Positions 4,464-20,891 of a stretch of DNA of 38,711 nucleotides are shown here, piece after piece (position 1 is the stretch's first letter; each line of letters begins with the position of its first letter). Origin of the DNA: Pelomonas sp. KK5 (GTDB taxonomy: Bacteria > Pseudomonadota > Gammaproteobacteria > Burkholderiales > Burkholderiaceae_C); contig NZ_LYVQ01000031.1 in NCBI RefSeq assembly GCF_001984095.1, positions 1-38,711 of the forward strand, in the 5' to 3' direction. Made by a program: the position numbers and the translations under genes. The notes under the pieces are model-generated. The model did no database searches. It was not told the DNA's origin and saw only the letters and a list, made by a program, of their open reading frames with translations.

Positions 4464-7400
4464 CGCGCCACATGCAGGACGTCCTTGCCTGGCTGGAGGC
4501 CCTGTTCGCCGGCCTGCCGCAGCCGCTGCTGGAGGCCTGGGGGCTGGTGGGCGTGGCGCTGGGCGTGCTGCTGTCGCTGCTGTGCTTCGGGCGGCTGACG
4601 CTGCGCGTGGGCCGGCGCTGGCGGCTCGGTCGCGAGCGCCAGGCCTGGAACGCGCGGGCCTTCTTCGCCGCCGGCTTGAGCTTCGTGCTGCTGCCGCTGG
4701 CGGGCTGGCTGGGCTCGGGCATCGTGCTGGTGGAAGGGGCGCAGACCTTCGAGTCGCTCAAGGACCTGGTGTTCTTCATGGCCGTGCTGCTGTTCGGCTA
4801 CCCGGCGCTGCTGGTGCTGCCGCCGGCCTACATGCTCTCGGACCTGATCGAGGGCACGCCGCCGCTGTGGGTGGCGGGCTGGACGCCGGGCTACTTCTTC
4901 CTCAGCGCCTATGCCTGGCTGGGCTGGCAACTGATCGGGCAGGACCCGGACTTCCGCCGCGCCCGCACCTGGGCGCTGTACGTCCCCTACGCGCTGGGCC
5001 TGGCCTTCTTCGATCCGGTCATGTGGGGCTTCATCAGCAGCGGCAGGTTCGCCGACGGCATCGCCTACCAGAGCGTCACGCCGGCCATGCTGGCCACCAA
5101 GGGCCTGACCTGGCTGCTGCTGCCGCTGTTCATGCTGGCCGGCCTGCCGCTGGCGCGCCGGGCCGGCCTGTTCTGGGCCGAGATCCCCGGCCATGTGAAG
5201 CGCCGCCCGCTGCGCGTGCAGGGCTGGACCTGGGAGACCCGCCCCCGCGGCAGCGACGACGAGGCGGTGCCGCGCGATGCGGTCAGCGACATGCCCGGGG
5301 CACCGCTGCGCGTGGTGCTGGCGGGCAGCTTCGTGGTGCTGGTGCTGGGCCTGGCCGGGGCGGTCGGCTTCGTGATGCTGGGCAGCGCCAATGCGGTGGC
5401 CAACAAGCTGGCCCTGCGCCTGCACCAGGACATCTCGGCCAACGTCGAGGCCCGGATGGACGACTACCTGGCCCATGCCGCCACCCTCACCGAGGGCGAG
5501 CGGCTGCGCGGCCTGAACGGCCTGCTCGCCACGCTGCCGATCGCCCGCAACGGCCGCGCCCTGGTGGTGGACGAGCGGGGCCGGCTGCTGGCCTCCAGCG
5601 CCGCCGGGGGCCGCGGCGAGCCCGTGGTGAACCTGGCGCTGGAGCAGCTGAACCAGCGCGTGCAGCATGCCGCCGATGCGACGGCGCAGGGCCTGAGCTT
5701 CCGCTTCGACGTGGTGAGCACCCGGCCGCTCGCGCGCGAGACCTGGCTGGCGCGGGCGGTGCCCTACACCGCCAGCTACCAGCACTGGATGCAGCTCACC
5801 GCCATGCCCGAGAGCTACTACCTGGCCGAGGTGGAGCGGGGCAACAGCGCGGCCGCGCTGCTGTGCGTGGCGGCCCTGGCGCTGGCGCTGCTGGGCGCCG
5901 GCCTGCTGGCCACCAGCGTGGCCTCGCCGCTGCGCCGCGTCACCGAGGCCGCCGGGGAGATGGCGGCCGGCCGGCTCGACCAGCGCGTGCGCGGCAGCGC
6001 GCTGGCCGAGGTGCAGGCGCTGGTCAGCGCCTTCAATGCCATGGCCGAGCAACTGCAGGCGGCCTTCCTGAGCCGCAAGCGCGTGGAGGAGACGCTGACC
6101 GGCATCATCGGCGCCTCGCCGGCCGCCATGGCCGTGTTCACCGAATCCGCGCAGCGCAGCGCCGGCAATGTGCTGGAAGGCCGCACCGTGCTGCGCGTCA
6201 ACGAGGCCTGGGAGCGCATCACCGGCCACCGCGCGCATGACATCGAGGGCCGGTCCAGCAGCCTGCTGAACCTGTGGTCCGACGTCGAGGCGCGCCGCCG
6301 CTACAACACGCTGATGTTCGAGAACCAGCAGGTGTCCGGCTTCGAGGCGACGCTGCTGCGCGTGGACGGCACGCCCTTCCAGGCCCAGCTGTCCGGCGCC
6401 GAGCTGCGCCAGCAGGACGAGGTGCTCACCCTGCTGGTGATCGTGGACATCACCGAGCGCAAGCATGCCGACGAGCAGCTGCGGGCCCTCAACCACCGCA
6501 TGCAGACGCTGCTGGATGCGGCCATCGAGGTGGCCATCGTCGCCAGCGACACCGAGGGGCGCATCACCGTCTTCAACCACGGCGCCGAGCGCATGCTGGG
6601 CCACGAGGCGGCGGCGATGCGCGGCCAGCCGGTGCTGGGCCTGCACGACGCGGACGACCTCGCCGCCGCACTGGGCGGCGCGCCGCTGCAGGATGCCTAT
6701 GCCGCGCTGACCCGCGACGGCGCCTCCTGCGTGCGCAACGGGCGGCTGCTGCGCGCCAATGGCGAGCCGGTGCAGGTGTCGATGTCGCTCAACGCGGTGC
6801 GCGACGAGCAGGGCGCCACGCTGGGCTACCTGTGCATCGCGCTGGACATCACCGAGCAGCTCGCCGCCCAGGCCGAGCTGCAGGAGATGAACGCCAGCCT
6901 CGACCGCCGCGTGCACGAGCGCACCGTGGCGCTGGAGGACGCCAACCGCGCGCTGGAGGCCAACTTCGAGCACCTGCGCCAGATGCAGGCCAAGCTCGTG
7001 CAGTCGGAGAAGCTCGCCGGCCTGGGCGAGATCGTCAGCGCCGTGGCCCACGAGCTGAACGGCCCGATCGGCAACGCCGTCACCGTCGCCAGCACCCTGC
7101 ACGGCGACACCACCGAGATCAACCAGGAGATGAGCGCCGGCACGCTGCGCAAGCAGCGCTTCGGCAGCTACCTGGAGGCGGCGGCCCAGGGCGCGCAGCT
7201 GCTGGAGCGCTCGCTGCAGCAGGCGGCGACGATGGTCAGCAACTTCAAGCGCGTGGCGGTGGACCAGGGCACGGCCACGCGGCGCCTGTTCGACCTGAAG
7301 AGCGCCGTGGACGACACGCTGATCCTGCTGCGCCCGACGCTGCGCAAGACGCCCTGGCAGGTGCAGTTCGACGTGCCGGCCGGCATCGAGATGGACAGCT

Positions 7401-15823: not shown

Positions 15824-17028
<1,205 letters not shown>

Positions 17029-17032
<4 letters not shown>

Positions 17033-17820
17033 GCGGGGCCGTGACCGAGATCCACCGCGAGGTGGCGGGCCGGGACGGCGGCAAGGCCCCCGTCGTGCTC
17101 TCGCATGCGCTGGGGCTGGACGTGTCGATGTGGGACGCGCTGGCCGCCAAACTGGCTGCCGCGGGCCATCCGGTGCTGCGCTACGACCATCGCGGCCACG
17201 GCCGCTCCGGCGTGCCTGCGGGGCCGTACACGATGGACGACCTGGTCGCCGATGCGGCCGAGGTGATCCGCGACTGGGGCGTGGGCCCGGTCGTCTGGAT
17301 CGGCCTGTCGATGGGCGGCATGGTGGGGCAGGGCATGGCCATCCACCATCCGGAGCTGCTGCGCGGGCTCGTGCTGGCCAACACCACGGCGCAATACCCG
17401 CCCGCCGCCCAGTCGGGCTGGGCCGAGCGCATCGCCAAGGTCGAGGCAGGCGGCCTGGCGGCCATCGTCGAGACGGTGCTGGAGCGCTATCTGAACGCGA
17501 GCTTCCGGGCGGCGAATCCGGGGGTTGTCGATGCGCTGCGCCGCAAGGTGCTGAGCGTCGATCCTCGGGGTTATGTCGGCTGCTGCCATGCGGTATCGAA
17601 GGTGAACTGGCTGGATCGGCTGCACGAGATCCGCCGCCTGTCCACACTCGTCATCGCCGGCCGGCTCGATGCCGGCACGCCGGTGGCGATGGCGGAGGCG
17701 ATTCATCACCGGGTTGCCGGATCGCAGCTGACCGTGCTGGAGGATGCCTCGCATCTCAGCGTGGTGGAGCAGCCGGCGAGGTTCGAAGAGGTAGTGACAG
17801 GGTTCCTGGCGGGCTGCTGA
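17029..17820 (+). CDS. pcaD: 3-oxoadipate enol-lactonase
   Basis: 263 aa, alpha/beta hydrolase. The nucleophile is S94 in GLSMGGMVGQ, with D214 (GRLDAGTP) and H242 (EDASHLS) completing the triad; SHALGLDVSMWD and YDHRGHGRSG form the oxyanion and lid-proximal regions typical of PcaD. It hydrolyses 3-oxoadipate enol-lactone to 3-oxoadipate. The start is taken as GTG 17029, which overlaps the pcaF stop as GTGA and has a GAGCG upstream; a GTG at 17041 is the alternative. It is the last pca gene here. No pcaC, pcaB or pcaHG is in the window. Confidence 0.92.
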
Positions 17821-17860
17821 GTGGGCGCTTGAGCGCAGAGTGGATCGGGGATCGTTCGCG

Positions 17861-17890
17861 TTGACTTGGGTCAAGGGCGGTGTCTAGGAT
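17861..17890 (+). promoter_or_regulatory. Putative promoter with embedded FNR-like palindrome, ahead of the cassette-like cluster
   Basis: TTGACT (17861-17866), 18 bp, TAGGAT (17885-17890) makes a good sigma-70 promoter reading into the small-gene cluster. The -35 lies in TTGACTTGGGTCAA (17861-17874), which matches the TTGAY-N4-RTCAA pattern of CRP/FNR-family sites. Its centre, near -30, is unusual for class II activation, so the palindrome may be repressing or fortuitous. Confidence 0.45.
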
Positions 17891-17916
17891 GCCGAGATCC
17901 AGATTCTGATGAGACC

Positions 17917-17978
17917 GCTGACGCCATGAGCGCAGTCCAGCCGACGCGCAATGGCGCGGCTGAACGCAATCGCTAGGC
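17917..17978 (+). repeat. attC-like imperfect palindrome A
   Basis: 62 bp. The outer ends GCTGACG and GCTAGGC resemble RYYYAAC and GTTRRRY. Inner arms GCGCAGTCCAGCCGACGC and GCGCGGCTGAACGC pair almost fully around a short GCAAT-containing loop, with two unpaired A residues on one arm only. An unpaired spacer separates the outer and inner pairs. This outer box / spacer / inner stem with extrahelical bases is the architecture of integron attC sites. A small gene starts 14 nt downstream. Confidence 0.5.
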
Positions 17979-17991
17979 CTTCTCGCAAGCC

Positions 17992-18462
17992 ATGAGCCCA
18001 TATCTCGCCGCAGTGCTTCTTGGAGGGTCCATCGCGGGCGCGCTGGACATCATCTTTGCCATCTCGTTTGCCGCCTACAACGGGGCCACGCCGGCCCGTC
18101 TGCTGCAGACCGTTGCCAGCGGCCTGCTCGGCACCGCGGCCTTCACGGGTGGCGTGTCGGCCGCGGCCCTCGGTCTGGCACTTCACTTCTTCATGTCGTT
18201 TCTGTGGGCCGGCGTGTTCCTGGCTCTGGCGAGACTTCTTCCGGCGCTTGCACTGCATCCCGTCGTGTCCGGCATCGCCTTCGGCGTCGTGGTGTTCTTC
18301 TCCATGCGGCTCGTCGTCTTGCCGCTCTCCGCCTTTCCCTATCCAGTCACGTTCAAGCCGCTCGCTACCGCCCTTGATCTCTTGTCGCATGCACTGCTAT
18401 TTGGCGTTCCGATCGCTTGGGCGGTTCAGAGAGCGTTGCTCAATGTGCCGGGCAAGGCCTGA
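17992..18462 (+). CDS. Small four-helix membrane protein, unknown function (cassette-like)
   Basis: 156 aa, with four predicted membrane helices: ~5-28 (AAVLLGGSIAGALDIIFAISFAAY), ~42-65, ~66-86 (LHFFMSFLWAGVFLALARLL) and ~91-112, then a weaker C-terminal hydrophobic stretch. I do not recognise a named family; similar small integral membrane proteins occur as hypothetical proteins in proteobacteria. No catalytic motif is visible. It starts 14 nt after attC-like site A, and its stop codon lies inside attC-like site B, the layout of an integron gene cassette. There is no strong ribosome site. Confidence 0.75.
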   Translation: MSPYLAAVLLGGSIAGALDIIFAISFAAYNGATPARLLQTVASGLLGTAAFTGGVSAAALGLALHFFMSFLWAGVFLALARLLPALALHPVVSGIAFGVVVFFSMRLVVLPLSAFPYPVTFKPLATALDLLSHALLFGVPIAWAVQRALLNVPGKA

Positions 18463-18516
18463 TCCCTCCGTGAAGAGGACTGGCCTGCTGCCAGCCCCTC
18501 ACGTCGAACTAGCACC
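18456..18516 (+). repeat. attC-like imperfect palindrome B (degenerate)
   Basis: 61 bp, from GGCCTGATC at the stop codon of the preceding gene to the base before the next ATG. The inner arms CGTGAAGAGGACTGGC and GCCAGCCCCTCACG pair around CTGCT with two extra bases on the left arm only. The outer boxes are weak: GCCTGAT on the left, AACTAGC on the right. It could also act as a terminator hairpin, but no T-run follows. Confidence 0.35.
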
Positions 18517-19044
18517 ATGAAAATCGTCGTACATCACACGCTTGACGACTTCGAGTTGATCCGAGGAGTCATGGCGGCGCGGCAAGGCCCGATAGGCGTG
18601 CGGGCTTTGGTGCTCACCCTGGTCAGTGCAGCAACTACCTGCTTGCTTATGGCAGGCTGGGTACTTGTCGTGTCGAGTTGGATGCTCGCAGTCCCTGATC
18701 CGAAGATTTCGGTAAATTGGGCTGGCGTCCTAGTTTGCTCGTCCTTTGCTTTCGCATTTCTGGCCAGCTGCTTGCGAAGCCGATTCACGGAGCACCGGTT
18801 TCTCGGTGAATCTGGTGCAGCTGATGCCGAGTATGAGTTGAACGCCGAAGGCCTTGTGCGAACGACCAGGTCATCGCGGTCACTTTTTTACTGGACGCCC
18901 GAATTTTCGCTGGAGAGCGATACGCAGCGGTACTTTCTCAGTTTCGGGGCGGATGTCTTGCTTGTCGTTCCCGCAAGAGCCTTCACCACATATGCTGAGT
19001 TCGAGGCATTCGGTGTCACCGCCAACCAGCTTGCACATGGCTGA
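18517..19044 (+). CDS. YcxB-like membrane protein (cassette-like)
   Basis: 175 aa. Two membrane helices (~31-58 and ~66-85) are followed by a C-terminal domain with FYWTPEFSLESDTQRYFLSFGADVLLVVPARAFTTYAEFEAFG, which matches the YcxB-like C-terminal pattern (hydrophobic strand, VPxRAF, E-F). Function of the family is unknown. Base composition is visibly lower in GC than the surroundings, especially in the first 250 nt, and codon use includes rarer AT-ending codons, consistent with acquisition. It starts immediately after attC-like site B, and its stop lies in attC-like site C. Confidence 0.78.
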   Translation: MKIVVHHTLDDFELIRGVMAARQGPIGVRALVLTLVSAATTCLLMAGWVLVVSSWMLAVPDPKISVNWAGVLVCSSFAFAFLASCLRSRFTEHRFLGESGAADAEYELNAEGLVRTTRSSRSLFYWTPEFSLESDTQRYFLSFGADVLLVVPARAFTTYAEFEAFGVTANQLAHG

Positions 19045-19095
19045 CCCGCAGTTCCAGCCGGCGGCAAACGGCGCTGCTGAGCTGACTCGTTAGGC
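19039..19095 (+). repeat. attC-like imperfect palindrome C
   Basis: 57 bp. The right end is a perfect GTTRRRY box (GTTAGGC, 19089-19095) preceded by GCTGAGCTGACTC; the left end GGCTGACCCGCAGTTCCAGC is its imperfect complement, with single unpaired bases on one arm. The core GCCG...CGGC forms a short hairpin. The left end overlaps the upstream stop codon, as in gene cassettes. It is the best attC match of the three. Confidence 0.5.
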
Positions 19096-19135
19096 GTCCC
19101 CACCACCAGTCGCCCGTTCAGCAAAGCGCTCCACC

Positions 19136-19636
19136 ATGAAGTCCGCCGCTTCACCCCCCGCTTCCGCCGCCTCACCCGCGGAACAACTCGAAGCATTCAT
19201 CGCGAAGTTCGAGCCGGCAACGGCGGCGCTCATTCGCGAATGCAGGGCCGAGCTTCAAGCGCTCCTGCCCACCGCGATCGAACTTGTCTACGACAACTAC
19301 AACTTCTTCGTGATCGGCTACTGCGCCACTGAGCGCCCCTCCAGTTGCGTCGTCTCTCTCGCTGCGGCTGCCAATGGCGTGGGTCTTTCCTTCTATCGCG
19401 GGGCGTCGCTGCCTGATCCAGAGCAGCTTCTGCAGGGCAGCGGAAAGCAGAACCGCTTCGTGCGCCTTCCCAGCGCCGAGACGCTGCGCATCCCCGGGGT
19501 CCTGGCCCTCATCGCCGCCGCCGTCGCCCTGGCCGAGCCGCCGCTTCCCGCCAGGGGCGGCGGGCTGACTGTCATACAGTCCGTGTCGGCGAAGCAGCGC
19601 CCACGTCGCAAGGCTCAAGGAAAAGGGGCCGCCTGA
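19136..19636 (+). CDS. DUF1801 (YdhG-like) domain protein (cassette-like)
   Basis: 166 aa. An A/P/S-rich start is followed by a DUF1801-type segment: EAFIAKFEPATAALIRECRAELQALLPTAIELVYDNYNFFVIGY, then SLAAAANGVGLSFYRGASLPDPEQLLQGSGKQNRFVRL. The family has an SCP/CyaY-like small alpha/beta fold of unknown function. The C-terminus ends in a basic tail (KQRPRRKAQGKG). It lies 41 nt after attC-like site C in the same orientation as the two preceding genes. No full attC follows, only a GCCTGAC at its 3' end, so the cluster may be truncated here. Confidence 0.8.
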   Translation: MKSAASPPASAASPAEQLEAFIAKFEPATAALIRECRAELQALLPTAIELVYDNYNFFVIGYCATERPSSCVVSLAAAANGVGLSFYRGASLPDPEQLLQGSGKQNRFVRLPSAETLRIPGVLALIAAAVALAEPPLPARGGGLTVIQSVSAKQRPRRKAQGKGAA

Positions 19637-19660
19637 CCGGTATCTCGAAGCGAGGACACC

Positions 19661-20218
19661 ATGGGACTCCTGACCTTTGCCATCAACGTCACGCTGGACG
19701 GCTGCATCGACCACCGGGAGGGCGTCGCCGACGACGAGACACACGCCTTCTTCACCCGCCTCATGGACGAAAGCGGGGCGATGCTGTGGGGCCGCGTCAC
19801 CTACGAGATGATGGAGAGCTACTGGCCGGCGGTCGCCCGCGGCGACGCGCAAGCGCCGCCAGCGATGCGCGAGTGGGCGCTCAAGCTGGAGGCTAAGCCG
19901 AAGTACGTGGTGTCGTCGACGCGAAAGGACTTCCCGTGGACCAACAGCCACCTCGTCGGCGGCGACCTGGGCGCGGGCGTGCAGAAGCTCAAGGACACGA
20001 CGCCGGCCGGCGTGCTCCTCGGCAGCGGCAAGCTGGCGGCCGAACTGGACCGGCTGGATCTGATCGATGAGTACCGCCTGCTCGTCCATCCCAGGATCGC
20101 GGGTCACGGCCCGACCCTGTACGAGGGTGGGCTGCCCGGCACGCGACGGCTCGAGTTGATCTCGGCGAGGCCGCTGGGCAGCGGCGCGGTCGCCATGCAC
20201 TACCGGCGCGCGCGCTGA
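19661..20218 (+). CDS. RibD C-terminal / dihydrofolate reductase-like protein
   Basis: 185 aa. The fold of the RibD C-terminal domain is shown by the start LLTFAINVTLDGCIDHREG, then MLWGRVTYEMMESYWP, AKPKYVVSSTR, and GVLLGSGKLAAELDRLDLIDEYRLLVHPRIAGHGPTLYEGG. These proteins bind NADPH and reduce pterin- or pyrimidine-like substrates, but stand-alone members such as this one are rarely characterised. It starts 24 nt after the DUF1801 gene, with GCGAGG before ATG. It is not a folA gene, since it lacks the typical DHFR substrate residues. Confidence 0.85.
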   Translation: MGLLTFAINVTLDGCIDHREGVADDETHAFFTRLMDESGAMLWGRVTYEMMESYWPAVARGDAQAPPAMREWALKLEAKPKYVVSSTRKDFPWTNSHLVGGDLGAGVQKLKDTTPAGVLLGSGKLAAELDRLDLIDEYRLLVHPRIAGHGPTLYEGGLPGTRRLELISARPLGSGAVAMHYRRAR

Positions 20219-20240
20219 CCCGGATCGGAGATGGCTCATC

Positions 20241-20891
20241 ATGTTGCCTGAGCACCCCGCCGACACCCTCCTGCTGTACGGCGCCGCCGCCTCCGGATCG
20301 GTGGCCGTCGAAGCGGCGCTCAGCCTGCTCGACATCCCGTTCCGGCTCATCGAGGGCGAGACCTGGTCCTCCGAGGCCGCCCGCCTGCAGGTCGGCGCGC
20401 AGAACGTGATGCGCCAGATCCCGACCCTGGTGCTGCCCGGTGGCGAGACCCTCACCGAGAGCGCCGCGATCCTGCTCCACCTGGCCGACACCCATCCGCA
20501 GGCGAGGCTCTCGCCCGGCCTGGCGGACCCGTCGCGCGCCCAGTTCCTGCGCTGGATGTTCTTCGTCTCGTCGGCGATCTATGCGCTGCACTGGATCAAG
20601 CCGGACGTGGGCCGGATCGGCGCGCCGCAGTCGGCCCGGGACGATGTCGTCCGGGCGGTCCACGAGCGCATCGCCTTCTGCTGGCGCACGATGGATGGCC
20701 AGCTCGAGCCGGCGCGCTACCTGCTCGGCGACGAGCTGAGCGTGCTCGATATCTACGTGGCGGTGGTCTCGCGCTTCGGCCCCTGGCGCGAGCGCTTCTA
20801 CGCCGAGGCACCGCGCATGACGCCGGCGATCCAGCGCGTGGACGAGGATCCGCGTTTGAAACCGCTCTGGGCCAGCCGCTTTCCAGAGTAG
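20241..20891 (+). CDS. Glutathione S-transferase family protein
   Basis: 216 aa. N-terminal thioredoxin-like domain with LLLYGAAASGSVAVEAALSLLDIPF and the glutathione-binding QIPTLVLPGGETLTESAAILLHLADTHP (ESAAI), then an all-helical C-terminal domain (FLRWMFFVSSAIYALHWI; YLLGDELSVLDIYVAVVSRF with the conserved N-capping D). It probably conjugates glutathione to electrophiles or acts as a GST-like isomerase in the cytoplasm. It follows the RibD-C gene by 22 nt and precedes map by 26 nt, in the same direction, so the three may be one transcript. Confidence 0.92.
   Translation: MLPEHPADTLLLYGAAASGSVAVEAALSLLDIPFRLIEGETWSSEAARLQVGAQNVMRQIPTLVLPGGETLTESAAILLHLADTHPQARLSPGLADPSRAQFLRWMFFVSSAIYALHWIKPDVGRIGAPQSARDDVVRAVHERIAFCWRTMDGQLEPARYLLGDELSVLDIYVAVVSRFGPWRERFYAEAPRMTPAIQRVDEDPRLKPLWASRFPE

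Follow-up and report, generated by a model that had tools for sequence, protein, structure and literature searches.

The Pelomonas sp. KK5 contig analysed here (the window: contig C31, positions 1-38711) carries at about 17861-20252 what is, with a probability of roughly 90%, the eroded remnant of an integron cassette array, a fossil array kept as a small gene cluster. It belongs to a known kind of element (CALIN, decayed integron) met late in its decay: the recombination sites have decayed, while the genes they collected persist. The original prediction of a relict attC array without a linked integrase is supported by covariance-model matches at two sites (A and C), by the homology of a third (B) and by the absence of an integrase match on the contig. 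The extent it gave, 17917-19100, was too short, for the remnant takes in a putative promoter and a probable attI remnant on the left and the end of a RibD-C cassette on the right. The window is part of a 6.87 Mb draft genome in 619 contigs that is 99.67% complete. The elements of the remnant are as follows.

17861-17890, plus strand: promoter-like pair TTGACT - 18 nt - TAGGAT
17885-17915, plus strand: probable attI remnant
17916-17978, plus strand: attC relict A
17992-18462, plus strand: cassette gene 1, 156-aa hydrophobic protein
18457-18515, plus strand: attC relict B
18517-19044, plus strand: cassette gene 2, 175 aa, low GC, no family
19039-19095, plus strand: attC relict C
19136-19636, plus strand: cassette gene 3, DUF1801
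19640-20218, plus strand: RibD-C gene (19661-20218) with a 21-nt cassette leader
20225-20252, plus strand: 3' end of the RibD-C cassette

Results

Three sites homologous to attC

As predicted, a palindromic site precedes each of three same-strand ORFs. The attC check that had been proposed was run with a home-made covariance model, R1, built from 25 attC sites, eight from contigs C244 and C385 of the same genome and 17 from six integrase-bearing relatives, with no site from the window; training sites were picked from descriptor hits and their orientation was set by eye. Pairing in R1 covaries (0.208, against a shuffled mean of 0.077 and 0.021-0.055 for slid versions), a figure inflated by the kinship of the sequences. 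With filters off, R1 matched the window at site C (19039-19095; 45.5 bits, E 1.2e-8) and site A (17923-17978; 29.0 bits, E 8.1e-5), and the next match (12.2 bits, E 0.65) was the reverse strand of site C. Genome-wide, site C keeps an E-value of 2.1e-6 and site A a marginal 0.015. Site B was left unmatched by R1, even though the model includes the attC closest to it. Compared pairwise with the attC of a relative (G148; L065:11013-11072), site B scored 62, a value reached by none of 200 shuffles (maximum 42); judged by its letters, it is a decayed copy of a relative's attC.

A pairwise scan gave the same three places. The library comprised 76 attC-like strings from eight array loci, among them palindromic sites entered on both strands and others that are possibly not true attC, and was compared with 7,730 windows of 62 nt on both strands at a step of 10. 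Site A (76), site C (74) and site B (62) ranked at the top, followed by 44, with a mean of 26.9 and a standard deviation of 4.4. On sequence grounds, sites A, B and C are thus homologous to real attC sites of their own genome and family. An earlier library of 149 descriptor strings from all loci had its top place at 16141, inside the thiolase gene (104); this candidate was rejected, its score being taken as due to descriptor strings from relatives' thiolase genes. Elsewhere in the genome, C38:18116-18166 matched R1 at 27.9 bits but scored only 40 against the library.

The three sites are unevenly kept. In site A the right half is well preserved (R' GCTAGGC, 17972-17978), the left arm is disrupted and R'' is perhaps CGCTGAC (17916-17922). 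Site B has R'' GCCTGAT (18457-18463) and has lost R'. Site C has R'' GGCTGAC (19039-19045) and an intact R', GTTAGGC. The overlap of sites with the stop codon of the preceding gene was borne out for B and C, whose R'' boxes hold the stops of genes 1 and 2, but does not hold for A, since the pcaD gene upstream stops at 17820, some 95 bases before it. A 12-nt near repeat (11/12) occurs both in the disrupted left arm of A (17923-17934) and at the start of gene 1 (17989-18000), and may be a trace of the insertion that broke the site.

The consensus of attC boxes R''/R' is RYYYAAC/GTTRRRY, and a strict descriptor of this type found no site in the window, where only the R' of C is intact. Minimum-energy DNA folds of all three sites, on both strands, were no better than those of shuffled sequences (z -0.92 to +1.93). 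Decayed sites would give both results. A scan at gathering cut-offs returned no Rfam match, and no tRNA or tmRNA gene was found.

Near-intact arrays and the pattern of decay

Searching the genome at the DNA level with 17000-20400 as query turned up short repeats of sites A and C on two contigs, C244 and C385, which carry near-intact attC arrays. Other genes lie to the right of the array on C244 and to its left on C385; the ends of both contigs fall within an array, whereas the window sites sit inside their contig. These intact arrays (L048, 1-3621, on C244; L049, 1578-3391, on C385) comprise several small genes without a known function, whose GC content of 57-59% compares with 68-71% in the neighbouring DNA. 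On C385, an attI-like sequence at about 1512-1577 heads the cassette array; to its left, the 1.4 kb present contain a 290-aa ORF (539-1411) and no integrase. A further contig, C126 (L133), has half an attC at about 4750-4773 and a whole decayed attC at about 4891-4947, before a 162-aa ORF.

In the repeat search, all 11 copies of the left arm on C244 and C385 have TAAC in R''; the strict descriptor demands AAC and so provides no test of this reading in intact arrays. The corresponding letters in the window are TGAC (A and C), TGAT (B) and TGAG (RibD-C tail), and TGAC on C126. At least four ORFs on C244 end with TAA inside R'', and the stop in B and C is TGA. The exchange of TAA for TGA in R'' thus kept the stop codon in B and C, a pattern that AT-to-GC pressure under selection for the stop codon may have produced.

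The left end

Upstream of site A, a consensus scan found one promoter-like pair against 0.2 expected in shuffles; it is possibly the old cassette promoter (Pc). The stretch 17885-17915, which runs from the end of this pair to site A, resembles the attI regions of family integrons and of C385, and is probably an attI remnant. Among 20,904 windows of the own genome the left end scored best (42), followed by the attI of C385 (40), with the next elsewhere at 34; in the scan of 3,866 windows from the window it was again best, the next reaching 38. The targets came from 26 of 30 integrase loci (four had no motif) and were trimmed after a first, looser positional control had failed, in which the left end scored 46 and at least 15 of 1,288 windows scored 48-56. 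Family integrons whose attI the left end resembles have integrases 68-71% identical to the C60 integrase of this genome (see below). Against C385 alone, the similarity is weak (3 of 2000 shuffles reach the score).

The cassette genes and their setting

The reading frames of the cluster genes are open. Gene 1 weakly resembles DUF1440 (20 bits; cut-off 34.7). The label DUF1801 for gene 3 passes by the narrowest margin (27.3 bits; cut-off 27.2). The name YcxB-like for gene 2 found no support: PF14317 has no match in the genome up to E 10, Pfam gives only a sub-threshold COX8 and NCBIfam nothing. Gene 2 is indeed low in GC, with the lowest values of the eight genes measured (GC 0.559, GC3 0.614; window 0.693). 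GC3 is 0.61-0.76 in genes 1-3, against 0.875-0.95 in the thiolase, pcaD, GST and MAP genes.

Distribution among the 299 family genomes, own included, is patchy for gene 1 (8 genomes) and confined to the own genome for gene 2; gene 3 has matches in 30 at E 0.001, mostly distant, the best other one at 63% (G046). On plasmids, gene 1 matches four distant Rhizobium records and gene 2 has no match at E 0.01. No attC was found near homologues of gene 1 (8 loci) or gene 3 (19 loci), nor gene 3's own attC in the window. Purifying selection acts on the two genes tested, gene 1 (pS 0.537 and pN 0.138 against G007) and RibD-C (pS 0.24-0.26 and pN 0.06-0.075 against four relatives).

Gene 3 is followed on the plus strand by RibD-C (19661-20218) and GST (20241-20891). 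The best matches of pcaD are in two Rhizobacter metagenome genomes (60-66% identical), which points to the Burkholderiales as the probable order of the host. The order iclR-pcaIJ-thiolase-pcaD is kept in three of ten relatives' pcaD loci (L120-L122), and none of the ten, all from outside the genus, has genes 1-3 or RibD-C nearby. Given this absence and the model matches, neither of the two outcomes that would have refuted the original prediction came about. GST is also found in G030 and G187, there unaccompanied by the other window genes.

RibD-C as a cassette passenger

The RibD-C gene (58.9 bits) had been placed in the chromosomal flank; it is instead a cassette gene in relatives, and here it keeps its cassette end up to the R'' box. 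Of the 299 family genomes, 32 have homologues at E <=1e-60 (the own genome is counted in), and we examined 30 loci, 29 of them from other genomes. An R1 match (E <=0.1) lies within 200 bp of RibD-C in 8 of the 29 (L154, L156, L157, L162, L164, L169, L170 and L176) and within 1.5 kb in three more (L150, L158 and L165), with none at the remaining 18. In L176 the gene has attC on both sides; in the window only the R'' end is left. The same tail, which runs into GCCTAAC, is found in L154, L156 and L157. The window tail runs into a remnant R'' box, GCCTGAG (20246-20252), and ends where the GST frame begins; its 20225-20249 aligned to the L156 cassette end with a score of 28, against at most 24 in 2000 shuffles. 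The leader matches at 19 of 21 positions, a count given without a shuffle control. The tail is absent in L149 and L150, the two best-scoring relatives of RibD-C. A match to L169 (score 54) was judged a probable chance resemblance in GC-rich sequence.

GC3 of RibD-C is host-like (0.914). Genes 81-86% identical to RibD-C in DNA lie on Microvirga, Variovorax, Deinococcus and Sphingobium plasmids, a distribution suggestive of recent transfer over a wide range.

An integrase elsewhere in the genome

The statement that no integrase lies in the window stands, since the TIGR02249 profile has no match on contig C31; in the genome, the profile matches on C60, C230 and C181 only. The C60 match is a full-length integron integrase (C60:27385-28326; L009 12314-13333; 463.8 bits, cut-off 265, no stops); the ORFs on either side look by eye like those of an ABC transporter ATPase and a chloride channel. 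This integrase stands alone, with no R1 match on C60 among the 26 genome-wide matches listed. Such an integrase is present at E <=1e-60 in 65 of 150 family genomes, and 60 exceed the cut-off. Close relatives of the C60 integrase are accompanied by attI regions resembling the one on C385.

Discussion

Several other readings of these data deserve weighing. That the palindromes are ordinary intergenic structures, such as terminators or chance inverted repeats between unrelated genes, would agree with the unexceptional folds, the lack of an Rfam match and the empty strict descriptor search. It is nevertheless very improbable, because attC of the own genome are matched by sequence at all three sites and by model at two, far above background, and because the sole terminator-like site in 17780-19140, at 18945, lies away from A, B and C. 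Less probable still is a dispersed palindromic repeat family unrelated to integrons: the sites do recur on several contigs, but the copies on C244 and C385 follow genes in cassette fashion and in one orientation, and like sites adjoin relatives' integrase genes.

The strongest competitor, though itself unlikely, holds that cassettes entered singly at a non-attI site through an integrase acting in trans, so that the likeness to attI is chance and the locus was never an integron platform. The full integrase on C60 would suit it, as would the modest lead of the attI match in one scan (42 against 38), the failed looser control and the trimming of targets afterwards. Against it, the left end is the best of 20,904 windows with the C385 attI-like site second, it adjoins an independently found attC, and a promoter-like pair stands where Pc would be. 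We also regard as improbable that the array is alive, with the C60 integrase still able to move cassettes here, at least via site C. Excision of a cassette requires two working sites, which counts against a live array, as do the changes seen in the R'' of C and in both boxes at A and B. In its favour are the intact frame of the C60 integrase and the R' GTTAGGC kept in site C, and integrase-less arrays can be mobilised in trans according to a Xanthomonas study (PMC12444791).

Reading the locus as a fossil array, we infer its history, and likewise its expression and its loss of recombination, along these lines. Gene cassettes lacking promoters would once have been added one after another by an integron integrase, which acted on the folded bottom strand of the attC of each cassette; an attI site with its promoter probably stood ahead of them. 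Recombination of the bottom strand and Pc-driven expression are described in PMC2727003 and PMC11014356. With no integrase linked now, base changes and deletions would have spoiled the sites: damage or loss affects R' in A and in B, the left arm of site A, the greater part of the RibD-C attC and the attC of gene 3. What survives is a small same-strand cluster of open genes, which the old putative promoter could still drive. A wider scheme, to which we give tentative and rather doubtful credence, is a split integron, in which the lone intact C60 integrase serves in trans an attI-led array on other contigs, and older arrays (the window and C126) stand at graded stages of decay under selection for cassette stop codons.

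Like CALINs as characterised in PMC9024848, the window has at least two nearby attC in one orientation by model (R1 matches at 17923-17978 and 19039-19095, plus strand, from the home-made model and not that of IntegronFinder), no integron integrase on the contig by the TIGR02249 profile, and small orphan genes in one orientation. Unlike them, it keeps a promoter-like pair and a probable attI remnant, and its sites are far gone in decay, one of them escaping the model. A complete integron has an integrase gene adjoining attI, and contig C31 has none. Complete integrons of the family (for example G010:C4 and G145:C21) share the attC architecture, and their attI region resembles the left end of the window; in contrast to the window, their integrase adjoins attI and their attC boxes are sound. 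For the sedentary chromosomal integrons of Xanthomonas with inactivated platforms, PMC12444791 describes stable arrays after loss of integrase activity and further arrays away from the integrase, as here; about half of the Xanthomonas genomes carry arrays at a distance from the integrase locus, and these can be mobilised in trans. The present genome differs in that a full-length integrase remains, but alone. A search of titles and abstract beginnings found no paper on this array or on RibD-C as a cassette gene.

Arrays so decayed escape a strict box search, and their numbers in genomes are possibly underestimated. With near-intact and decayed attC of one sequence family in one genome, the losses can be read directly: TAA becomes TGA in R'', and R' boxes and stem arms go. 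The RibD-C reductase gene is a repeated cassette passenger in the family, and the cluster as a whole is a clearly bounded example of integron cassettes becoming ordinary genes of the chromosome.
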